64,000 bases of DNA, from positions 496,001-560,000 of the forward strand of contig NZ_FMYQ01000001.1 in NCBI RefSeq assembly GCF_900096975.1, given 5' to 3'. The stretch is from Paraburkholderia lycopersici. Lineage in GTDB: Bacteria; Pseudomonadota; Gammaproteobacteria; Burkholderiales; Burkholderiaceae. This document shows positions 2,012 through 43,260 of the stretch, piece after piece. The position numbers and the translations under genes were made by a program. Position 1 is the stretch's first letter. Each line of letters begins with the position of its first letter. The notes under the pieces are model-generated. The model searched no databases and was not told the DNA's origin. It worked only from the letters and a program-made list of their open reading frames with translations.

Positions 2012-2457
2012 ACGCGCCCGCCCGCGTCGTGACGATCGGCGAGACGTTCCGCTCGACGCTTCAGCTCACGCCCGAATCGGTGAAATCGTTCGGACTGCTC
2101 GTGAACGATCTGAACCCGCTGCATCACGACGAAGCCTACGCGGCGCGAAGCCGCTTTGGCGGACTGATCGCCTCGGGCACGCAACCCACCGCGCACTTCA
2201 TGGCGCTGCTCGCCACGCACTTCTCGCAGTATGCGCAGCCGCTCGGGCTCGAATTCGACATGAAGCTCAAGCGCGCCGCGCACGCCAGCGACACGCTCAC
2301 GTTCGAATGGCGCGTCGAGGAAGCCTGGTGGAAGCCGAGCCTGAACGGCGATCTCGTGAAGCTCGCGGGCGAAGCCGTGAACCAGAAAGGCGAAGCGCTC
2401 GTCGTGGGCCGCGCGACGATTCTCGTCATGCCGAAGCCCGGGCACGCGAAAGCATGA
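2008..2457 (+). CDS. MaoC-like hot-dog dehydratase domain protein
   Basis: The 149-residue product is a single hot-dog domain of the MaoC/(R)-hydratase type. Residues around 35-45 read NDLNPLHHDE, the Asp/His hydratase motif, and RFGGLIASGTQPTAH follows as the conserved substrate-loop region. Family members hydrate 2-enoyl-CoA or act on related thioesters in fatty acid or propionate routes; the specific substrate is unknown. AAGGAG at 1995-2000 gives a strong ribosome site. Start and stop both overlap the neighbours by ATGA, showing tight coupling with the DUF1289 gene before and the MBL hydrolase after. Confidence 0.82.
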   Translation: MNAPARVVTIGETFRSTLQLTPESVKSFGLLVNDLNPLHHDEAYAARSRFGGLIASGTQPTAHFMALLATHFSQYAQPLGLEFDMKLKRAAHASDTLTFEWRVEEAWWKPSLNGDLVKLAGEAVNQKGEALVVGRATILVMPKPGHAKA

Positions 2458-3386
2458 GCACGGCGCCCGCACTGCCCGCTTCGGTCCGCGTATTCGAGCG
2501 CGGCTGGCTTTCTTCGAACAACGTGCTGCTCGTCGATGAAGCATGCGCCGCGCTCGTCGATACGGGCTACGCCACGCATGCCGGTCAGACGCTCGCGCTC
2601 GTGCGCCACGCGCTGGACGCGCGCCCGCTCGATCTCATCGTCAACACGCATCTGCACTCAGACCATTGCGGCGGCAATGCGCGGCTGCAGGCGCAATGGC
2701 CGTGCGCCACGCTGATTCCGGCCGCGAGCGCGGCTATCGTGCGCGACTGGGACGAGGCGCGTCTGACCTTTCTCGCCACAGGGCAGACCTGCGGGCGTTT
2801 CGGGTTCACGGGGACGCTCGCGGCGGGCGAGCGGCTCGCGCTGGGCGGTTTCGAGTGGGAGGTGATCGGCGCGCCGGGGCACGACCCCGACTCCGTGATG
2901 CTCTACGCGAGCGAGCCGCGCCTGCTCATCAGCGCCGACGCGCTCTGGGAACAGGGCTTCGGCGTGATTTTTCCGGAGCTGGACGGCGAAAGCGGATTTG
3001 CCGAGCAGCAGGCCGTGCTGGAAACCATCGCCAAACTCGACGTGCGCGCGGTCATTCCGGGCCACGGCAAGCCGTTCGCAAACGTCGAAGCGGCATTGGA
3101 GCGCGCGTTTTCGCGCCTTGCCTGGCTGCGCGCCGACCCGGCGCGCAACGCGAAAAACGCGCTCAAGGTGCTGATCGTCTTCAAGCTGCTGGAAGTGCGC
3201 ACGATGAGCTTCGAGGCCCTCGTGGCCATGCTCGAAAGCGCGGCGTCCATGCGCGCCGCCGCGCAACAGCTCGCGCCGCGCGCTGCGTGGCCCGCGCTGC
3301 TGCGCGAACTCGCCGGCGAGCTGTCGAAAAGCGGCGCGCTCGTGGCGAACGGCGAGCGCCTCGAAGCGCCGCCAACGGCGGGCTAG
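2454..3386 (+). CDS. MBL-fold metallo-hydrolase
   Basis: A 310-residue metallo-beta-lactamase-fold protein. The metal site is plain: VNTHLHSDHCGG near residue 63 (HxHxDH), GAPGHDPDSVML as the third His, SADALWEQGF with the bridging Asp, and VIPGHGKPF as the last His. The C-terminal 90 residues form a helical extension after the hydrolase core, seen in a subset of the family. The reaction is unassigned; thioesters, lactones or phosphodiesters are all family substrates. The ATG overlaps the MaoC gene stop. It is the last gene of the coupled four-gene run. Confidence 0.85.
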   Translation: MSTAPALPASVRVFERGWLSSNNVLLVDEACAALVDTGYATHAGQTLALVRHALDARPLDLIVNTHLHSDHCGGNARLQAQWPCATLIPAASAAIVRDWDEARLTFLATGQTCGRFGFTGTLAAGERLALGGFEWEVIGAPGHDPDSVMLYASEPRLLISADALWEQGFGVIFPELDGESGFAEQQAVLETIAKLDVRAVIPGHGKPFANVEAALERAFSRLAWLRADPARNAKNALKVLIVFKLLEVRTMSFEALVAMLESAASMRAAAQQLAPRAAWPALLRELAGELSKSGALVANGERLEAPPTAG

Positions 3387-3393
3387 CAGAGGG

Positions 3394-3430
3394 CGAAAAA
3401 AAACGCTCGTCCGTTTTCCGGACGAGCGTT
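3394..3430 (-). terminator. Rho-independent terminator of the DUF445 gene
   Basis: Perfect 12-bp stem (3402-3413 with 3419-3430) and a five-base loop. The A-run at 3396-3403 becomes a U-run on the minus strand, so it best serves the minus-strand DUF445 gene that ends at 3602. It may also stop plus-strand readthrough from the MBL gene. Confidence 0.75.
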
Positions 3431-3601
3431 GGAATTAGCTCTGACGTGATCAAACTGTCGAGGGCATCATACCCGCGCCAGAATGCGCGAAGCATCGGTG
3501 ATTTCCCTACAAATGACCGACGGTCGCGGACACGGCGCTTCCGGCGGGCAAATCATGCCGGAAGCGCCGGAAGCGCCGATTGATCCGGAATCCGAATCAA
3601 A

Positions 3602-4903
3602 TCAGTAGCCGATTTTCAGCCGGACAAGCTCGAACAGGTGCGAGCACAGATAGAGGCCGAGCCCGATCGCGCCGCCTATCACCGTGCCGTTCACGCGAAT
3701 CTCCTGCAGATCCTTGCCGATCTTCAGCTCGATGAGCCGCGCGGTCTCGCGCGTGTCCCAGTTCTTCACCGTGTCGCGAATGTGATGCGTGAGGTAGCGC
3801 GCGAAATCGGGCGCCATCGCACGCGCGGCGTCTTCGAGGTGGCCGTTGAGCGAGGCGCGCAGCTCGGCGTCGGCGGCGAGCGCTTCGCCCAGCCAGCGGC
3901 CCGTTGCAGCCACTTTCTCGTGCAGCGCCGAGTCCTCGCGCTCCAGATCGTCGCGCAACCACGCGCGCAGGCTGTCCCAAAGCGCGCGCGTGTACTCGTT
4001 GAGCGCGCGGCCTTCGCGCAGGCTCGCCTTCAGCTCCTCGCCCTTGCGCAGGAAGGCCGGATCGCTTTTCAACTGCACGATCAGCTTTTCCACGACCGCA
4101 TCGAACTTCTGGCGCAGGTGATGCTCGCGGTCCTCGCTCACCTGCAGCAGCAGCCGGTTCACGGCGCTCTCCAGCACGCGCGCGCCGCTCTCGCCGATCC
4201 ATTCGGAAGGCAGAAACTTCTCGGTCTTCGGAAATTCGCCCTTGAGGCCATCCACGATGCGCCCCGCCACGAACGCGCGCGTACCGTCCTCGCGCAGCAG
4301 CGCACCCAACTGGTCGAGCATCTGGTCGAGCAGCTCCTGGTGGCGGCCGTCCCGGGTCAGCGTGTCGAGGATCGCCCCTGCCGACTTCGAGAGGTCCACC
4401 CGCGCAAGCGCCGCATGAAGACCGTCGCGGATGAAACCCTGAATGCGCGCGTCGTCGGTGAGACCGAGCACGCCCGACATCATGCGCACCGTGTAGTCGC
4501 CGAGGCGCTGCGCGTTGTGCGGGGCCGCGAGCCACGCGGAAAGCCGCTCGACCGGATCGTGGCGGCGGATCAGGCCGACGAGCGAACCCACGTCGAGGAA
4601 CTTGTCGCGCACGAAGCTGGCAAGCTCGTCGGCGATGCGGTCCCTGTTGCGCGGAATCACGCCCGTGCGCGCCGAAACGAACGGAATCGACACGCGCCGG
4701 AACAGCGCGACCACGGCGAACCAGTCGGCGAGCGCGCCGACCATGGCGGCTTCGCTCACGGCCTTGATGCCGTCGATCACGGGCCCGGGCGGGGAAAGCG
4801 CGGTGCCCACGAACACGAGCGCCGCGCCTTGCAGCAGGAGCAGCGCGCGGCGTTTGGCGCGCGCGAGTTCGGCTTCGTCATGGTTGGCGTGCGGCTGGGT
4901 CAT
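3602..4903 (-). CDS. DUF445 family membrane-associated protein
   Basis: A 433-residue protein of the DUF445 (YjiN/YheB-like) family. A hydrophobic N-terminal segment (residues 20-40) precedes AAMVGALADWFAVVALFRR, the signature of the family. A long charged, helix-rich middle follows, and the protein ends in a second hydrophobic hairpin (VIGGAIGLGLYLCSHLFELV). This suggests inner-membrane anchoring at both ends with a large soluble part between. Function is not established for the family. It stands alone, and a hairpin with a U-run lies downstream. Confidence 0.85.
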   Translation of the reverse strand: MTQPHANHDEAELARAKRRALLLLQGAALVFVGTALSPPGPVIDGIKAVSEAAMVGALADWFAVVALFRRVSIPFVSARTGVIPRNRDRIADELASFVRDKFLDVGSLVGLIRRHDPVERLSAWLAAPHNAQRLGDYTVRMMSGVLGLTDDARIQGFIRDGLHAALARVDLSKSAGAILDTLTRDGRHQELLDQMLDQLGALLREDGTRAFVAGRIVDGLKGEFPKTEKFLPSEWIGESGARVLESAVNRLLLQVSEDREHHLRQKFDAVVEKLIVQLKSDPAFLRKGEELKASLREGRALNEYTRALWDSLRAWLRDDLEREDSALHEKVAATGRWLGEALAADAELRASLNGHLEDAARAMAPDFARYLTHHIRDTVKNWDTRETARLIELKIGKDLQEIRVNGTVIGGAIGLGLYLCSHLFELVRLKIGY

Positions 4904-6574: not shown

Positions 6575-7504
6575 TCAGCGCTCGGTGGTCTCGAAGAACG
6601 CCAGCATCTCCTCGACCAGCGCCTCGCTCGCTTCCTCGGGAATGTAGTGGCCGCACGGCAGCGCGCGGCCGCTCACGTCGCGCGCCACCTTGCGCCATTC
6701 CGCGAGCGGGTCGAAGCAGCGCTCGATCACGCCCTCCGCGCCCCACAGCACGCGCAGCGGGCACGCCACCTTGTTGCCGCGCTCGAGATCGGCGCGGTCG
6801 TGGTCGAGGTCGATAGTCGCGCACGCGCGGTAGTCCTCGCACATCGCGTGCACGGCGCCCGGCTGGCGCAACGCCGCGCGGTATGCGTCGAGCGCCTCCG
6901 GTGCGAACGGCGCGAGACCCGCGTGGCGGCTGCCCATCACGCGCTCGACATAGACGTCGGGATTCGCTTCGATGAGCGTTTCCGGCAGCGGCTCGGGCTG
7001 GATCAGGAAGAACCAGTGGAAGTAGAGCGTGGCGAACTCGCGGTTGGTTTGCTCGTACATGGCGAGCGTGGGCGCGATGTCGAGCAGCATCAGCCGTTCG
7101 ACGGCGCTAGCGTGGTCGAGGGCCATGCGATGCGCCACGCGCGCGCCGCGATCGTGCGCGCACACGAGGAAGCGTTCGTGGCCGAAATGGCGCATGACCT
7201 CCACCTGGTCGGCCGCCATCGCGCGCTTCGAGTAGGCCGCGTGCGTGGCGTCGCTGGCAGGCTTGGACGATGCGCCGTAGCCGCGCAGATCGGTCGCGAT
7301 GACGGTGAAATGCTGCGCGAGCGCGGGGGCGCAGCGGTGCCAGATCATGTGGGTCTGCGGATGGCCGTGCAGCAGCAGCAACGGCGGTCCGTTGCCGCCC
7401 TTCACGCCGCAGATGTCGACGCCGCCCGAAGTGCGAACGGTGAAAGGCTGGAATCCATCGAAGGGCATGGGCAAAGCCTCTTTTGCTTGTTGGTCTGCGG
7501 TCAT
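6575..7504 (-). CDS. Alpha/beta hydrolase, fluoroacetate dehalogenase-like
   Basis: A 309-residue alpha/beta hydrolase with HGHPQTH as oxyanion loop. The nucleophile site CAHDRGAR places Asp118 with Arg119 and Arg122, the carboxylate-binding pair of fluoroacetate dehalogenases. Further matches are Asp142 (LLDIAPT), the halide-site pair His163-Trp164 (YFHWFFL), Tyr225 and His286 (CGHYIPEE). Spacings follow the known enzymes closely (118/119/122/142/163/164 are all offset by 8, and 225/286 by 6). The reaction would be hydrolysis of haloacetate to glycolate. ATG at 7504 is preferred over upstream in-frame starts because homology begins there. True substrate is untested; epoxide hydrolases are the nearest alternative. 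Confidence 0.8.
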   Translation of the reverse strand: MTADQQAKEALPMPFDGFQPFTVRTSGGVDICGVKGGNGPPLLLLHGHPQTHMIWHRCAPALAQHFTVIATDLRGYGASSKPASDATHAAYSKRAMAADQVEVMRHFGHERFLVCAHDRGARVAHRMALDHASAVERLMLLDIAPTLAMYEQTNREFATLYFHWFFLIQPEPLPETLIEANPDVYVERVMGSRHAGLAPFAPEALDAYRAALRQPGAVHAMCEDYRACATIDLDHDRADLERGNKVACPLRVLWGAEGVIERCFDPLAEWRKVARDVSGRALPCGHYIPEEASEALVEEMLAFFETTER

Positions 7505-7609
7505 TGTATGAGGCGAGCGCGGCTCGAAAACGCGCTTTTGACACCGTAACGGTAGAAACCGAACACTCCCTCGAATGGCACGCGCGCGATGCCCGGACGA
7601 CCCCACACC

Positions 7610-7615
7610 TATAAT
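7610..7615 (+). promoter_or_regulatory. Candidate -10 box for the nitronate monooxygenase gene
   Basis: A perfect TATAAT lies 105 bases before the start codon. I see no good -35 box at 16-18 bp, so the promoter may depend on an activator. Confidence 0.45.
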
Positions 7616-7719
7616 CGAACGATTGTTTGCGCGATCGGCATGCGCCGCGACTCCCGGCGCCGCCGGGTCGATCAAGCTGGATCGCGTGCCCGCCCGCGCG
7701 CCGCAAGGAGACCTCCGAC

Positions 7720-8685
7720 ATGGCATTGCCCGCCGTCCTGCAGAATCTCTCGCTGCCCGTCGTGGGCTCGCCGATGTTCATCGTCAGCTACCCGGAGCTC
7801 GTGCTCGCGCAGTGCAAGGCGGGCATCGTCGGCTCGTTTCCGGCGCTCAACGCACGCCCCGCCGAGCTGCTCGGCGAATGGCTCACGCAGATCAAGGCCG
7901 GGCTGGCCGCGCACAAGGCCGCGAACCCCGAGGCCGTGATCGGCCCGATCGCCGTCAACCAGATCGTGCATCAGTCGAATGCGCGGCTCGAGCACGACGT
8001 GCGCGTGTGCGTCGAGCATCAGGTGCCGATCTTCATCACCAGCCTGCGCGCGCCGCCGAAGGAACTGCTCGACGCCGTGCACAGCTACGGGGGAATCGTG
8101 CTGCACGACGTCATCAACCTGCGCCATGCGGGCAAGGCGCTCGAAGCCGGCGTGGACGGCCTGATTCTCGTGGCCGCCGGCGCGGGCGGCCATGCGGGCA
8201 CGACCTCGCCGTTCGCGCTGGTGGGCGAAGTGCGGCGCATCTTCGACGGCCCGATCGTGCTCTCGGGCGCGATCGCCAACGGCGGCTCGATCCTCGCCGC
8301 GCAGGCCATGGGCGCGGACCTCGCGTACATGGGCACGCGCTTCATCGCCACGCGCGAGGCGCACGCGGTGGACGCCTACAAGCACGCCATCCTCGAAGCG
8401 AAAGCCGCCGACATCGTCTACACGAACCTGTTCACCGGCGTGCATGGCAATTACATCCGCGAAAGCATTGTGAACGCCGGCCTCGATCCGGACGCGCTGC
8501 CCGAATCGGACAAGTCGAAGATGGACTTCGGCGCCGGCACCTCTAAGGCGAAGGCCTGGAAGGACGTCTGGGGCGCGGGCCAGGGCGTGGGTCTGATGGA
8601 CGACGTGCCTTCCGTGGCGGAACTCGTCGTGCGGCTCAAGCGCGAGTACGACGAGACGAAGGCGCGGTTGGGCATCGCGCGCTGA
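7720..8685 (+). CDS. Nitronate monooxygenase (2-nitropropane dioxygenase family)
   Basis: The 321-residue protein is a TIM-barrel flavoenzyme of the nitronate monooxygenase family, which oxidises alkyl nitronates using FMN and O2. The N-terminus LPVVGSPMFIVSYPELVLAQ is the FMN-binding first strand. GLILVAAGAGGHAGTTSPFA holds the conserved AGGHAG loop with its His, and GADLAYMGTRFIAT is the phosphate-binding strand. ATG at 7720 follows AAGGAG at 7705-7710. Length is normal. It converges with the LysR gene only 16 bases away. Enoyl-ACP reductase FabK is a relative but is less likely. Confidence 0.9.
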   Translation: MALPAVLQNLSLPVVGSPMFIVSYPELVLAQCKAGIVGSFPALNARPAELLGEWLTQIKAGLAAHKAANPEAVIGPIAVNQIVHQSNARLEHDVRVCVEHQVPIFITSLRAPPKELLDAVHSYGGIVLHDVINLRHAGKALEAGVDGLILVAAGAGGHAGTTSPFALVGEVRRIFDGPIVLSGAIANGGSILAAQAMGADLAYMGTRFIATREAHAVDAYKHAILEAKAADIVYTNLFTGVHGNYIRESIVNAGLDPDALPESDKSKMDFGAGTSKAKAWKDVWGAGQGVGLMDDVPSVAELVVRLKREYDETKARLGIAR

Positions 8686-8701
8686 GCCGTCCCCGACGCT
8701 G

Positions 8702-9694
8702 CTATGCCGACGTGCGCGGCGAGGCGCCCCGCAACGCCGCGTCGGCGCCGGCGTTGAGCGCCGCCGCACGGATCGCTTCCACGCCGGGCCACAGTTCGTG
8801 CTCCGAAAAACGCGCGGCGAGGAAATCCACGAACGAGCGCACTTTCGCCGAGAGATGGCGGCGGCTCGCATACACGGCATAGATCGGCAATTCGCGCGGC
8901 GGCAGCGCGTCCACGAGCAGCGGCACGAGGCGGCCTTCGGCAATGTCGTCGCCGACGACCTCGGTGCCGAGCATCGCCAGGCCACCGCCTTGCAGCACCA
9001 CCACGCGCAGCGCCTCCAGGTGATTGACGATGAGGTTGCCGCCGGGCTTCGGCTTCACGCCGGCGGCGGCGCCCTCCGCGAACAGCGCGAGTTCCTGCGC
9101 CGAAGCGCCTGCGTACTGCACGAAGTTGTGGCGCGCGAGATCGGCGACGGTCCTGGGCGCGCCGTGGCGGCGCAGGTATTCGGGCGAGGCGCACAGCACG
9201 ATATGCGCGGTGGCGAGCGGCCGGGCGATCAGCGACGACGACTTGAGCCCCGAAGGCGCCGCACGGATCGCCACGTCGAAGCCTTCGTCGATCAGTTCGA
9301 CCACGCGGTCGGAAAGCGTGATGTCGACGGTCACCTGCGGAAACCCGGCGGCGTAGTCGGCGACCGCCCCCATCACGTGACGCAGCCCGAACGCCGTGAG
9401 CGACGACACGCGCAGCCGCCCTTGCGGCACGACGCTCGCCGCGCCCACGGCCTGGCCGGCTTCGTCGAGCTCGGTGAGCGCCTGGGCCACGCGTTCGTAA
9501 TACTCGCGCCCCGCCTCGGTGGGCGCGACGCGCCGCGTGGTGCGGTTCAGCAGACGCGCGCCGAGCTGCTGCTCCAGATGCATGACATGCTTGCTCGCCA
9601 TCGCCGCGGACATGTCCATGCGCTCGGCCGCCGCGACGAAGCTGCCCGCCTCCACCACCTGGCGGAACACTTTCATGCTGACGAGGGTATCCAT
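8702..9694 (-). CDS. LysR-family transcriptional regulator
   Basis: A 330-residue LysR-type regulator. Residues 1-60 form the winged helix-turn-helix (MDTLVSMKVFRQVVEAGSFV, AERMDMSAAMASKHVMHLEQ). A linker helix follows, then a periplasmic-binding-protein-like effector domain from about 90 to 300 (PQGRLRVSSLTAFG). The effector is unknown. It converges with nitronate monooxygenase and is transcribed in the same direction as the upstream porin, from which a bidirectional terminator separates it. No obvious divergent target lies next to it. Confidence 0.9.
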   Translation of the reverse strand: MDTLVSMKVFRQVVEAGSFVAAAERMDMSAAMASKHVMHLEQQLGARLLNRTTRRVAPTEAGREYYERVAQALTELDEAGQAVGAASVVPQGRLRVSSLTAFGLRHVMGAVADYAAGFPQVTVDITLSDRVVELIDEGFDVAIRAAPSGLKSSSLIARPLATAHIVLCASPEYLRRHGAPRTVADLARHNFVQYAGASAQELALFAEGAAAGVKPKPGGNLIVNHLEALRVVVLQGGGLAMLGTEVVGDDIAEGRLVPLLVDALPPRELPIYAVYASRRHLSAKVRSFVDFLAARFSEHELWPGVEAIRAAALNAGADAALRGASPRTSA

Positions 9695-9804
9695 CGCGCG
9701 GCCTTCGACTCGAAAATAAATGGGCAGGAATCAATCGGCGTTATTGTCCCCGGTTTATCAAATAAAGGTGTTGAAACTCGCAGGCGCCGGGCGCGCCGGA
9801 AAAC

Positions 9805-9839
9805 AAAAAACCCCGCGCTGCGTGCAACGCGGGGTTTTT
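9805..9839. terminator. Bidirectional Rho-independent terminator
   Basis: A 7-bp GC stem (9811-9817 with 9828-9834) is flanked by an A-run before and a T-run after, so the stem can extend through A-T pairs. It sits 41 bases after the porin stop on the minus strand. Confidence 0.8.
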
Positions 9840-9879
9840 CGGGAAAACCGCCCAACGGCGGCGTGCAAGGCGGCGCCGT

Positions 9880-10974
9880 TCAGAACTTCGCGCGCAGGCC
9901 CACGCCGTATGTCTGGCCGCTCGACATGTTGTCGAAGTGGTCGTACATGTAGGCAGCGTAGACGTCGGTGCGCTTGGAGAGCGCGTAGTCGTAGCCGACG
10001 GCCGCCGTCTGGCGCGTCTGGTTCAGGCCGCCGCCGTCGCGCGAGTAGGCGTAGGAGGCCATGACGGTACCCGGTCCGACCGGCGCCGTCACGCCGCCTT
10101 GCGCCGTGTTCACGTGCCAGCTGCCGACCTGCTGCCAGTTCGCCGTATACATGTACTGGCCGAAGAACTTCACGTACTTGAGATCGTACGAAAGGCCGAC
10201 TTGCGCCACGCCCTGGCTCTTCAGGCCGATGACGGTCGTGTCGCCGCTCACGATGCTGCCGATGTCGCCCGGCGTGTTGTTGAAGTTCACGTACTGATAG
10301 ACGGCCGTCGCCGCGAACGGGCCGTGGAAGTACAGGCCCTGCACGCTCCACTTCTTCGAGCCGTTCTGGCCGGCCTGGTTGCCGAACGCGTACATGGCCG
10401 AGCCCGAGAGGCCGTTGAAGTTGGGCGTGGAGTACTGGACCGCGTTGTTCCAGCCCGAGTCGCCCACCACGCCCTGGTCGGTCGTGTAGGTCGGGAACGT
10501 CGAGAGGCCGAGGTACACGTGGTACACCATCGGCGAGAAGGTGTACGAATCGATGAACGGATTGAACAGAATCGTCGAAACGAAGAGTTGCGTCGTGAGA
10601 CGCCCCGCCGTGACGGTGCCGTACGGCGATTCGACGCCGACGTACGCGTTGCGCGCGAAGAACGTGTCGCCGGCGAAGCGGCCGTACTGGCCGTTTTGCG
10701 CGCGGAAGAAGCTCTCCAGCGTGAAGATCGCCTTATAGCCGCCGCCCAGGTCCTCGGACCCCTTCATGCCCCAGTATGACGTCGACATGCCCCCGCCGCC
10801 GACGTTCCAGGCCGTCTGACCGCCCGGAAATTTCGTCGCCCCGACCCATTCGTCGACCTGACCATAAAGCTGGACGCTCGATTGCGCGAACGCCGCCGAC
10901 GACGCGGCGAGGACGGCGGCGAGCGCACTCGCCTTCAGGGTGGTGCACAGCGCGCGGCTGACCGTTGTATTCAT
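9880..10974 (-). CDS. Gram-negative porin (beta-barrel outer membrane protein)
   Basis: A 364-residue general porin of the beta-proteobacterial OmpC-like type. The start at 10974 gives a clear signal peptide ending SSAAFAQ, and AGGAGA lies just upstream. The mature protein begins SSVQLYGQVDEWVG, the first strand typical of these porins. It shows alternating aromatic strands, SYWGMKGSEDLGGGYKAIF and the closing strand ending in a terminal Phe (YGVGLRAKF), which the outer-membrane assembly machinery recognises. It forms a trimeric diffusion pore. About 500 bases of upstream non-coding DNA suggest complex regulation, but I recognise no operator there. Confidence 0.92.
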   Translation of the reverse strand: MNTTVSRALCTTLKASALAAVLAASSAAFAQSSVQLYGQVDEWVGATKFPGGQTAWNVGGGGMSTSYWGMKGSEDLGGGYKAIFTLESFFRAQNGQYGRFAGDTFFARNAYVGVESPYGTVTAGRLTTQLFVSTILFNPFIDSYTFSPMVYHVYLGLSTFPTYTTDQGVVGDSGWNNAVQYSTPNFNGLSGSAMYAFGNQAGQNGSKKWSVQGLYFHGPFAATAVYQYVNFNNTPGDIGSIVSGDTTVIGLKSQGVAQVGLSYDLKYVKFFGQYMYTANWQQVGSWHVNTAQGGVTAPVGPGTVMASYAYSRDGGGLNQTRQTAAVGYDYALSKRTDVYAAYMYDHFDNMSSGQTYGVGLRAKF

Positions 10975-31212: not shown

Positions 31213-31992
31213 TCACGCACTGCATAGTCCGACGATTGCGCCCGTCTCGATCCATGCGCGCCACTGGCCGCCGAAGTCGAAAGCCGCGTCGATCTCGAAT
31301 GCCCGGGCAAGCGCCGAATCGAGCGTCGCGCCATCGCGCAGCGCAACGAAGGCCACGTGCGCGGCGCGCGCGTGCACGAGCACGGTGGGACGCCATTGCG
31401 GACGCACCACCAACGCCCATGAAGGCGCAGCGACATGCTCGGGCCACACGCCGCCCGGCTGGTGCGCACGCCAGATTCCCACCGCGTCGAAGCGAAAGGC
31501 AAGCGCAGCGCACGCCGGATGCACCACGAGACGCGATTGCGCGAGCCGCTCCGCGCCCAGCGCCTGCCACTGCCGTATGTCGAGCGGCGTGGCGTCGGCC
31601 GCGTAGCCGGCAACGTGCAACGACCATTCGAGCCGCGCGACGTCGCCGAAATATGCGTAGCGTGCGTCGGTTTCATAGCGCTCGACGAATTCGGGCAGTC
31701 GCGCGCCGAAGCGGTTCAAATCCGCATCGCGCGAAGAATGTTCGCGCGCGTAGGCAAGCGCAAGGGCGTCGAAGTACGCGTCGCCGGCGAGTGCCGCGAG
31801 CACCGGATAGGCATTGGCGAGCGCATGTCGCCGCGCCCCGCGCACGTTGCCGCGATAAAGGCCGAGGCGCTCGTGCAATAGCGCGGCATCGGCGGGCAGC
31901 ATGTGGCTCGCCAATGCGGCGTCGGCGGCCGGATCGTCGAGTGCGGCGGCGAAGGCCTGCTGGATCGCGTCCAGCGTCTCGCGCTCCTTCAT
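31213..31992 (-). CDS. bufC: BufC/HvfC-type DUF2063 protein, bufferin maturation partner
   Basis: A 259-residue protein with an N-terminal DUF2063 (HvfC/BufC) domain: [40 protein letters not shown], and FARFV-like [11 protein letters not shown]. Its partners in known systems bind the precursor peptide and present it to the DUF692 iron oxidase. Its start overlaps the stop of bufB by ATGA, so the two are translationally coupled. The C-terminal half ([21 protein letters not shown]) is the usual second domain. It is the last gene of the operon; no DoxX gene follows, unlike many bufferin loci. Confidence 0.85.
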
Positions 31993-32858
31993 GGCCGACG
32001 CCCCGCCTCACCATGTCGACCGACGCTTCTAGCGATACGCACCTCGTCGAGCAGCACGTCCAGCGCAGGCAATGCCGTGTCCCATTCGATGAGCGTCGGC
32101 GTGGCGCCGAATCGCACGAGCGCCGCCTCATACAGCGACCAGACAGCGGGCGCGACGCGCGAACCGTGATCGTCGATCACGGCGGAGGGTGTCGCGCGAT
32201 GCCCCGCGAGATGAATCTCGCCTACGATCCGCGGCGGCAGCGCAGCCATTGCCGCGAGCGCGTCCTCACCGTGATTGCACTGGTTGACGTACAGATTGTT
32301 CACGTCGAGCAGCACGCCGCAGCCCGTGCGCTGCGCGAGCGCCGCGAGGAATTCGGCTTCGCTGTACTCGTCGCCGCAAAATCTTACGTACGTCGAAACA
32401 TTTTCGATCAGTACGGTGCGCCTGAGCGCATCCTGTAGCTGCGCGACGCGCGCGCAAAGATGATCGAGCGAGCCTTGCGTGAGCGGCATCGGCAGCAGAT
32501 CGTGCAGCGCACCTCGCGCGTTCGCGCCCCAGCACAAATGCTCCGAGACGACAGCGGGCTCGATGCGCGCCACCAACCGCGCGAGCTTCGCAAGATGCGC
32601 CGTATCGAGCGGCACGGCGGAACCAGGCCCGAGTCCCACGCCGTGCAGACTCACCGGCAAATCGCGGCGCACGGTTTCGAGCACGTGCAGGTCGTAGCCG
32701 CCGTCGCCGAAATAGTTTTCGCTGTGGACCTCGACCCAGTCGACGTCGGGCGGTCCCGCCATGAAGGCCTCGTAATGCGCGTGGCGCAGGCCGATCCCCA
32801 CGCCGCGCGGCGCACTCATCTCGCGCGCCGCGAAAATCGCCTCACCTGTGGCGCTCAT
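31989..32858 (-). CDS. bufB: BufB/HvfB-type DUF692 multinuclear non-heme iron oxidase
   Basis: The 289-residue enzyme is a DUF692 TIM barrel of the MbnB/HvfB/BufB family, which uses a two- or three-iron centre to convert peptide cysteines into thiooxazole or oxazolone-type groups. Candidate metal ligands are His72 (SLHGVG), His107 (SEHLCW), Glu152 (IENVS), Asp185 (LLDVNNLY), His216 (EIHLAGH), Asp229/His231 and Glu258 (LIEWD). [12 protein letters not shown] at the start and [10 protein letters not shown] complete the family core. Start ATG overlaps the bufA1 stop and its stop overlaps the bufC start. The substrate is almost certainly the adjacent Cys-rich peptide. Confidence 0.9.
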
Positions 32859-33109
32859 TTTTCCGGCGTGCCGCCCAGCTTTTCGCACGTGCCCTTCGGC
32901 ATGGTTTTGAAGTCGCCCTTGTCGTGATCGACCTTGGCCTGGCCCGCGCAGTCGTGCACGCCGGTCTTGCTCGAGCAGTCGTTCTGGCCGGCCTTGGCTA
33001 CGCCGTAGCAATTCACGGTGTCGTCCGCATGGGCGACGCCCGCGCCGGCCGTCGTGAGACCCGCCAGCGCGGCGGCAATCAGCGCCTGACGGCCGAGTGA
33101 GTTCTTCAT
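32855..33109 (-). CDS. bufA1: BufA1-type DUF2282 bufferin precursor (Cys-rich metallophore peptide)
   Basis: An 84-residue precursor with a signal peptide ([18 protein letters not shown], cleaved about AHA-DD at 28) and a core with four Cys: Cys34 ([13 protein letters not shown]), Cys45, Cys54 ([10 protein letters not shown]) and Cys75 ([10 protein letters not shown]). This is the DUF2282 pattern of bufferins. In these ribosomally made peptides the cysteines are modified by BufBC and bind copper in the periplasm. GGAGA lies eight bases before the ATG. The gene heads the bufA1-bufB-bufC operon with overlapping stop and start codons. The modification itself is known from other species and inferred here. 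Confidence 0.88.
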
Positions 33110-33386
33110 GGCGTGTTCTCCTTGAACATCTAAATGAGGTGTCGCAATGCGCGATTGGGATTCCGGCCGCAGCAGCGCTTGCGGCGTCGCGCGCGCTATT
33201 TTGCCTCACCACGCCAGGCATCGCCGCAGCCGGCCATCGATCAGCAGGCGAATTATTGCAATTACCGTAACGAAGTTTGATGAGATCCAGTATTTTTCTT
33301 TGGAGTACAGCGCAATAAAGTCTCGTCAACGGTTCGAACAATATGATTGTTACGAAACGACCACATAATTTTCGGAGGTTATTACC
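33110..33386. other. Divergent promoter region of bufA1 and the DUF4148 gene
   Basis: 277 bases, AT-rich from about 33240. A perfect 6-bp inverted repeat (AACAAT-ATG-ATTGTT, 33337-33351) lies 36 bases before the DUF4148 start. It is a candidate regulator site for either gene; no known copper-regulator box was recognised. Confidence 0.4.
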
Positions 33387-33695
33387 ATGAAGAATCTGAT
33401 TGCTACTGCACTCGCCGCTACCGTTCTCGCCGCTCCGGCCCTGTCGTTCGCGCAAGCCAACCAGGCGCCCGTGACGCGCGCCCAGGTTCGCGCTGAGCTC
33501 GTCCAGCTGGAGAAGGCCGGCTACCGCCCGGGCCTCTCGAGCCCGTACTACCCGCAAGATCTGCAGACAGCGCAGGCACGCGTCGCCCAGCAGAACGGCG
33601 CAGCCGAAACCACGGCCTACGGCGCATCGACGAATGGCAGCGTCCAGGCCGGCGACCGCGCGCCGAACATCAAGCCGATCTACTTCGGCCAATAA
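33387..33695 (+). CDS. DUF4148 domain exported protein
   Basis: A 102-residue protein with a classical signal peptide ([20 protein letters not shown], cleaved after FAQA) and the DUF4148 core [23 protein letters not shown]4148 proteins are small, periplasmic or secreted, and multiply represented in Burkholderiaceae; no function is established. GGAGG at 33375-33379 is a strong ribosome site, and three hairpins lie downstream. It is divergent from the bufferin operon, sharing the AT-rich upstream region, though a shared role is not shown. Confidence 0.87.
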
Positions 33696-42078: not shown

Positions 42079-43260
42079 TCAACTCGCCTCGCGCGGCTTG
42101 TCGTGCGCAGCCAGCGCGCCGTGCACATCAAGCGACTGCATCACGTCGAGCCGGCTCGCGCCGAGGCGCGCGCGTAGCGCTTCGAGGTCCACGGACGCAA
42201 GACGGCGGGCGTCGTCCGTCGCGGCCAGCACCGCCTGAATCTCCAGCCCCGTGCTCAAGTAGTGCAGCGTCACGGCTTCCACATGCACGCCGTGCCCGGC
42301 CAGCGCTTCGCGCAGCCGTGCCGCCACGTCGTTGCGCGGCGGCTGGTTGGCCACGGAGCGCACATGCATGTCGTCTTCGGGATCGACGTGGATCAACGCG
42401 TCGAGCACCCGCGAATCGGTGAGCAGCCGCGAGCGCGCCGTTTCGGCGATGTAGTGGCCCTCCGAAACCGAAATCAGCGGGTCGACGAGAATGTGCGCAT
42501 CCACGAGCGCGAGGTCGCCGGTCTTGCGCGTGCGCATTTCGTGTACGTCGAGCACGCCCGGCGTTTCCAGCAGCAGCGTGCGCAGATCGGCGGCGGCGGC
42601 TTCGTCCAGCGCGCGGTCGGAGAGGTCCTGCAGCGCCTCCCAGCCGAACACCCAGCCCATGCGCGCCACCATGAAGCCGACGATGGCGGCCGCGATCGGA
42701 TCGAGCAGCCGCACGCCCGCGAGGCTGCCTACGATGCCGATCGCGACCACGAGCGACGACGCCGCGTCCGAGCGCGCGTGCCACGCATTGGCGATCAACA
42801 TGGCCGAACGCACGCGCTGCGCCTCGCGCAGCATGTAACGAAAGAGCCCCTCCTTGGAAACCAGCACGACGAGCGCGACGAACAGCGCGCTCATGTGCAG
42901 CGGCGGAATATCTTCGAGATTCGCGATGCGCGTGCCCGCGCGCGCCAGCATGCCGACGCCGACGGCAATCAATAATGCGCCGAGGAATAACGACGCGACG
43001 GTCTCGTAACGGCTGTGGCCGTAGTTATGATCGGCGTCCGGCTTTGCGCCGCTGTGCCGGTTGGCCAGCAGCACGACGAAATCCGAGACGATATCGGCCA
43101 GTGAATGAACGCCGTCGGCGATCAGCGCCTGCGAATGCGCGAAAAAGCCAATGGTGATTTGCAGCACCACCAGAACGCTATTGACGGCAACACTGACCCA
43201 CGTGGTCCGGCGCGCGACCTCGTGTTTATCTGATAACGGCGCGGCTGCGGAAGAAGTCAT
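42079..43260 (-). CDS. Cation diffusion facilitator (CDF) efflux protein
   Basis: A 393-residue CDF exporter with six transmembrane helices and a cytoplasmic ferredoxin-like domain. Helix 2 carries DGVHSLADIVSDF and helix 5 HARSDAASS, which together give the His/Asp metal-transport site. GHSRYETVASLFLG is the conserved loop. The C-terminal domain (DVHEMRTRKTGDLALVDAHI, LIHVDPEDD) binds regulatory metal. An extra 90-residue C-terminal portion goes beyond the usual 300 residues. It exports Zn, Mn, Fe or similar from the cytoplasm by proton exchange; the ion is not decidable. It lies upstream of no obvious partner. Confidence 0.92.
   Translation of the reverse strand: MTSSAAAPLSDKHEVARRTTWVSVAVNSVLVVLQITIGFFAHSQALIADGVHSLADIVSDFVVLLANRHSGAKPDADHNYGHSRYETVASLFLGALLIAVGVGMLARAGTRIANLEDIPPLHMSALFVALVVLVSKEGLFRYMLREAQRVRSAMLIANAWHARSDAASSLVVAIGIVGSLAGVRLLDPIAAAIVGFMVARMGWVFGWEALQDLSDRALDEAAAADLRTLLLETPGVLDVHEMRTRKTGDLALVDAHILVDPLISVSEGHYIAETARSRLLTDSRVLDALIHVDPEDDMHVRSVANQPPRNDVAARLREALAGHGVHVEAVTLHYLSTGLEIQAVLAATDDARRLASVDLEALRARLGASRLDVMQSLDVHGALAAHDKPREAS

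Follow-up and report, generated by a model that had tools for sequence, protein, structure and literature searches.

A probable Buf1-type bufferin operon of Paraburkholderia lycopersici that lacks doxX and a sigmaF box

The window, i.e. the whole 64-kb stretch of Paraburkholderia lycopersici DNA analyzed here, holds three compact genes on the minus strand that were originally predicted to form a bufferin operon. Indeed, both the open reading frame list and the sequence return the three frames at the predicted positions, headed by an 84-residue precursor with four cysteines, and the ATGA overlaps said to join the DUF692 and DUF2063 genes were verified at both junctions. The features are:

33387..33695, plus strand: divergent DUF4148 gene (PF13663, 66.9 bits), preceding bufA and syntenic with it in one subgroup
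33196..33207, minus strand: GAGGCAAAATAG, conserved element upstream of bufA, candidate -10 region or regulator site (from conservation)
32855..33109, minus strand: bufA, Buf1 (DUF2282) bufferin precursor, 84 aa (open reading frame list; PF10048)
32855..32858, minus strand: ATGA stop/start overlap of bufA and bufB (from the sequence)
31989..32858, minus strand: bufB, MNIO maturase, 289 aa, with its ATG in the ATGA overlap (PF05114; NF050167 MNIO_BufB)
31989..31992, minus strand: ATGA stop/start overlap of bufB and bufC (from the sequence)
31213..31992, minus strand: bufC, PME-type-1 partner, 259 aa, with an N-terminal DUF2063 and a C-terminal RRE-type domain (PF09836; Foldseek)

The gene after bufC encodes an NCS2-type (uracil/xanthine) permease. 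Sixteen neighboring open reading frames, a part of those between 20.7 and 43.3 kb, were compared with Pfam and include neither a sigma factor nor a copper regulator, three of them being without family. The original prediction was thus right that no ECF sigma factor or copper regulator is adjacent, but the arrangement is not unusual, the published Caulobacter operon being alike. An Rfam search over the whole window matched the tRNA only. Some 9 kb away, at 42079-43260 on the minus strand, lies a gene for a cation efflux transporter of the CDF family (Cation_efflux and ZT_dimer).

All three products exceed their Pfam cut-offs, BufA with 74.8 bits against DUF2282 (PF10048; cut-off 22.4), BufB with 329.9 bits against PF05114 (cut-off 25) and BufC with 70.3 bits against DUF2063 (PF09836; cut-off 27.2). 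Together with a score of 358.2 bits for BufB against the NCBIfam model NF050167 MNIO_BufB (cut-off 310), this upholds the bufferin reading, for which the profile searches of BufA and BufB had been proposed as a check. A match of BufB to a non-MNIO branch had been named as the outcome that would speak against it; instead, BufB is placed in the bufferin-maturase branch, as it passes the MNIO_BufB model and stays under the cut-offs of the HvfB (NF003818, 217.7 of 360 bits), ApyH, ChrH and MbnB (TIGR04159, 32.2 of 325 bits) models. BufA and BufC each have a sole NCBIfam match, in both cases below cut-off, to the BufA2 (32.6 of 60) and HvfC (41.4 of 142) models, respectively.

Relatives were collected in two sets, set A being loci from a search of genomes (89 of 91 rows used; L054 and L059 were dropped for a BufB match with a stop or too short) and set B the best 80 of 298 named GTDB loci, among which the closest named BufB relatives are from Paraburkholderia. 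The sets share organisms, and their counts are therefore not independent. Rows were divided into close and more distant at 67.5% BufB identity, the 102 close rows including the window; those cut by a contig end were left unscored for doxX or box, hence denominators of 100, 64 and 67. Of the 144 genomes of the genus that were searched, host included, 53 contain a BufB match of at least 68% identity.

Among rows with a bufA match, 99 of the 100 close and all 57 distant ones retain the four BufA cysteines (positions 34, 45, 54 and 75), the one exception being a precursor truncated by a contig end. These counts were drawn from every bufA match and not from our 35-row precursor alignment, which was picked from 71 rows passing a three-cysteine pattern; a bufA match is absent from four of 104 close rows (L053, L054, L079 and L136), some of which lie at contig ends. 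By eye, residues ~1-28 of BufA resemble a Sec-type signal peptide with a basic start, a hydrophobic stretch and an AHA-DD end, which would leave a mature peptide of ~56 residues. AlphaFold gave a poor and uninformative model for BufA (pLDDT 60.9).

Analogously, H72, H107, E152, D185, N188, H196, H216, D229, H231 and E258 of BufB are conserved in at least 97% of 169 rows, the two sets being pooled here with redundancy between them. We take these positions to be the probable MNIO iron ligands and catalytic residues; the candidate ligands were also compared against 3bww, chain A of which is the best PDB relative of BufB (E 8.8e-39). N175, D242 and H244 of HvfB are reported to matter for activity (PMC13419390); judged from the motifs, their counterparts in BufB appear to be N188 (or N187), D229 and H231. 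For BufC, a search of the PDB with the sequence profile gave no match. The structure model (pLDDT 92.2) is most similar in Foldseek to 3dee (NGO1945; E 2.8e-5) and to 8hi7_A from a TglHI entry (E 6.4e-5), and both NGO1945 and TglI are described as MNIO partner proteins (PMC12452194).

In our assessment the locus is very likely a Buf1-type bufferin (captophorin) operon, producing a modified, probably copper-binding peptide of the periplasm. The Buf1 family, as described in PMC12452194, shares the four-cysteine DUF2282 precursor, the MNIO and the DUF2063-RRE partner; its precursor is modified at the two central cysteines, the outer pair being joined in a disulphide. PMC13097082 links thiooxazole peptides of this class to copper, and the gigPABT operon is induced by copper (PMC10304878). 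We carry chemistry, export and copper binding over from such relatives to the window locus. In this reading bufABC would be translated with coupled starts, and BufC would bind the signal-peptide/leader region of the 84-residue precursor in the cytoplasm, presenting the core to BufB. With its iron cluster and O2, BufB would then turn Cys45 and Cys54 into 5-thiooxazoles, at a loss of four hydrogens each. Following Sec export of the modified product, signal peptidase would remove ~28 residues, a Cys34-Cys75 disulphide would form and the 56-residue peptide would bind copper in the periplasm, either buffering excess or holding copper for use. The mass shift on all four cysteines that the original prediction asked for is consequently the wrong measure, two central modified residues being what the Buf1 precedent leads one to expect (PMC12452194).

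A search for doxX returned no match at the window locus, as had been predicted. The absence as such is real, it is however no peculiarity: doxX is without match in 101 of the 102 close rows, and the CC2907-CC2906-CC2905 operon of Caulobacter (DUF2282-DUF692-DUF2063) is described with the same order, no doxX and no sigma factor in the operon (PMC3511200). Of the 64 scorable rows below 67.5% BufB identity, 39 have doxX, and 11 changes on a FastTree tree indicate that gain or loss is common. The gene is listed as core of the Buf1 operon (PMC12452194), in which the window operon deviates from the family. Its absence from Caulobacter CC2907-2905 argues that doxX is frequent in Buf1 rather than defining. 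We also considered whether a second buf operon, such as the host has on contig C47, provides doxX in trans; this is not general, since in 14 genomes the three-gene-type BufB is the only match, in a search that could miss distant MNIOs. The single close exception, L044, gives a weak doxX match (E 7.8e-5) in a remnant-like open frame of 95 residues directly after bufC. This probable degraded doxX (oriented 3692-3976) sits in a three-gene operon beside CopC/CopD-type genes and is possibly a trace of loss.

Upstream of bufA, the gap to the divergent DUF4148 gene is variable across 29 rows, save two conserved parts, a long block on the DUF4148 side, which is probably the promoter region of that gene, and the element GGCAAAATA. 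The DUF4148 link itself is shared by 24 of 44 close rows in set B and, counting the window, by 30 of 58 in set A. Located 53-129 nt before bufA, GGCAAAATA has an exact copy in 27 of the 30 close rows with the DUF4148 link, and 29 of 30 match when two degenerate positions are allowed. From its conservation we infer a candidate -10 region or regulator site; no accompanying conserved -35 was seen, and a sigma-70 promoter scan gave no match upstream of bufA. The 12-mer GAGGCAAAATAG has a single copy in the 7.15-Mb genome, at the window locus, so no regulon is seen, and it was rejected as a regulon marker on that ground. Among the upstream stretches of close rows without DUF4148, TGGACA-N16-18-TAAAAT occurs in seven of 27 and TTAAAAT in 11 of 27, no upstream element common to all being found.

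Next, the gene context of the relatives bears on what the peptide may be for. Bufferins are described as protectors against copper stress, in part under sigmaF-type control, and a clade without sigmaF box and doxX that in sister species lies beside copper-import genes raises the question of supply versus defense. Copper-type genes were counted as PCuAC, CopC, CopD, DUF2946 or PepSY. Set B permits the fairer comparison, since most of its rows have 4 kb a side, and set-A flanks are shorter, with medians of ~1.5 kb a side for DUF4148-linked and distant rows versus ~2 kb for the others. With queries picked after such genes had been noticed beside some loci, copper-type genes were found near 11 of 20 set-B and 18 of 28 set-A close rows without the DUF4148 link, of which the set-B row L139 is positive only by PepSY and a TonB receptor on the opposite strand. 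The counts are 0/24 (set B) and 0/29 (set A) for DUF4148-linked rows, the subgroup of the window, and 0/36 and 0/31 for the more distant operons, while eight copper-related queries found no copper gene in the 64-kb window. In L125, L131, L133, L136, L138 and L140, bufABC relatives stand beside combinations of DUF2946, a Phenol_MetA_deg-like protein, CopC and CopD.

Four regions of the window's genus, selected for PCuAC adjoining bufA (L182 2336-9433, minus strand, L183, L184 and L185; genomes G009, G123, G086 and G094), all read DUF2946 - TonB receptor - PepSY_TM - PCuAC - bufA - bufB - bufC on one strand, with Pfam naming DUF2946 in three and the receptor, PepSY and PCuAC in one or more. All four DUF2946 proteins carry CGYC, followed after 46 residues by RGPP, RDPP, RDPP or RAPP. 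CruR, the product of an upstream open reading frame of a copper-acquisition operon, is described with CXXC-45-RAPP, the spacing varying by one or two residues (PMC9426467), a motif to which that of the four proteins is close, making them cruR-like by sequence. In cruR-crtA-PepSY operons, CrtA is a TonB receptor that takes up copper in chelated form; crtA is usually followed by a PepSY gene, and a few such operons also contain PCuAC (PMC12914433).

This arrangement speaks for an alternative in which the bufferin of this clade serves copper acquisition or allocation, loading or carrying the metal for its uptake and for oxidase assembly instead of guarding against a surplus, a role we hold to be possible though not probable. 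It gains from bufABC directly following a copper-uptake gene set in four of the four regions fetched, from the CGYC-46-R[G/D/A]PP pattern near that of CruR, and from the receptor, here a putative counterpart of CrtA; a loss of doxX and sigmaF control would fit as well. Against it, the window's own subgroup is without these neighbors, and according to PMC12914433 a B. pertussis strain with an inactivated bufferin operon did not behave like one lacking the receptor, that operon did not act with CrtA there and the bufferin was excluded as ligand. Moreover, three of the four regions have a candidate promoter between PCuAC and bufA, leaving PCuAC-bufABC co-transcription putative. A broader version, which we regard as tentative and rather doubtful, is that a doxX-less, sigmaF-independent bufferin clade has switched from protecting against stress to supplying copper via CruR-gated TonB uptake, with the peptide as carrier or periplasmic store and the window operon moved off the cluster to a promoter of its own. 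If so, the CruR-like/TonB receptor/PepSY cluster would have been left standing alone on contig C43 in the window's lineage. The host has two CruR-like clusters, one with a TonB receptor and PepSY on C43 and one with CopC on C84; no buf locus adjoins either of them, and the only PCuAC match of the host is on C83. As PMC12914433 reports no other known metallophore cluster common to crtA-bearing genomes and excludes the B. pertussis bufferin, an adjacent bufferin operon of another genus would represent a new candidate. Neither this clade nor the order cruR-receptor-PepSY-PCuAC-bufABC was found described in the literature covered on Paraburkholderia DUF692/DUF2282 bufferins and on CruR/PCuAC/PepSY/TonB links, with most subscription papers outside its scope.

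That the peptide instead serves another metal (gold, nickel or manganese) or another stress appears improbable. Related gig operons respond to gold as well as copper (PMC10304878; PMC5413113), L185 has a gene for a NicO-type nickel transporter after bufC (2606-3685) and in L125 an Nramp gene stands before bufA (2115-3335); the recurrent neighbors are however copper genes, and copper is the metal to which this thiooxazole peptide class has been tied (PMC13097082).

Returning to the Buf1-type operon and its control, the Caulobacter three-gene operon is governed in trans by sigmaF, which binds GTAACC-N16-CGAA (PMC3511200). The host as well encodes NrsF and a neighboring ECF sigma factor, on C84 beside cytochrome b561 and molybdopterin oxidoreductase genes, and the identical layout invites the proposal that the window operon is likewise under sigmaF-NrsF in trans. 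We consider this highly improbable. At the divergon (L037 5912-8987; G000:C84), where sigma/NrsF is divergent from cytochrome b561/molybdopterin oxidoreductase, there is one exact sigmaF box in each direction, whereas the best coding-strand GTAACC-N15-17-CGAA site before the window bufA has three mismatches, a level reached in 84 of 100 shuffles of the scanned upstream stretch. Nine exact N16 boxes exist in the genome, none at either buf locus (the reversed pattern gives five), and before the second buf precursor of the host, on C47, ~460 bases contain no coding-strand N16 site with two or fewer mismatches. Across relatives, an exact box (N15-17) is found in none of 100 scorable close rows and in 13 of 67 more distant operons, all 13 of which have doxX. 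Absence of the box is not special to the close clade, given that none of the 36 distant set-B rows, most of them Oxalobacteraceae by name, has it either. Sites with one mismatch in seven close rows (L019, L111, L112, L114, L115, L116 and L139) share no common position and were taken as chance. We also examined if loss of doxX is tied to loss of the box; the tie is only partial, since of the set-B rows below 67.5% 19 of 34 have doxX but none of 36 the box. The prediction that control is unknown has been answered in part, by a missing sigmaF box and a conserved upstream element. Judged by promoter boxes, control would not be exerted by the host sigmaF-NrsF, and GGCAAAATA probably marks the promoter.

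A decaying or unmodified copy is barely credible, as the three window genes are intact with key residues conserved and BufB recurs as widely as noted above, even if unmodified precursors are discussed (PMC12452194) and a BufB relative with an internal stop (G071:C172:7686-8510) and broken pieces in G025 (G025:C4:193644-194211) are known. These stops and pieces indicate that the three-gene operon also decays in the clade, and no bufA match lies beside either BufB copy of G071.

Cupriavidus metallidurans belongs to the same bacterial family as the host. The first three genes of its gigPABT operon are the same as those of the window, but it continues with gigT, which is DoxX-like, and is accompanied by a divergent sigma/antisigma pair, rpoQ-rsqA (PMC10304878). 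The Buf1 family also differs from the window operon in that the latter has no adjacent sigmaF-NrsF (PMC12452194). HvfABC (oxazolin)/fontiphorin systems, Lys-Cys captophorins, share the MNIO, the DUF2063 partner and, by analogy, thiooxazole chemistry, whereas their precursors have EGKCG repeats (PMC13097082), of which the window BufA has none. Methanobactin MbnABC shares the MNIO superfamily with BufB, it is however described with another partner protein and no Sec signal (PMC12452194).

Variation on the layout is seen elsewhere: L085, L086, L087 and L089 have two tandem DUF2282 precursor genes before one MNIO, in small genomes of 1.7-2.7 Mb. The host has two DUF2282/PF05114 loci, that of the window and that on C47 (G000:C47; L003 ~6706-10547, minus strand), which reads bufA'-bufB'-365-aa insert-bufC'-doxX. 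The 365-residue protein has no Pfam match. Genes termed 'adjamnio-VI' are inserted at the corresponding place in buf1 operons (PMC12452194), and by position the C47 insert may be a putative counterpart.
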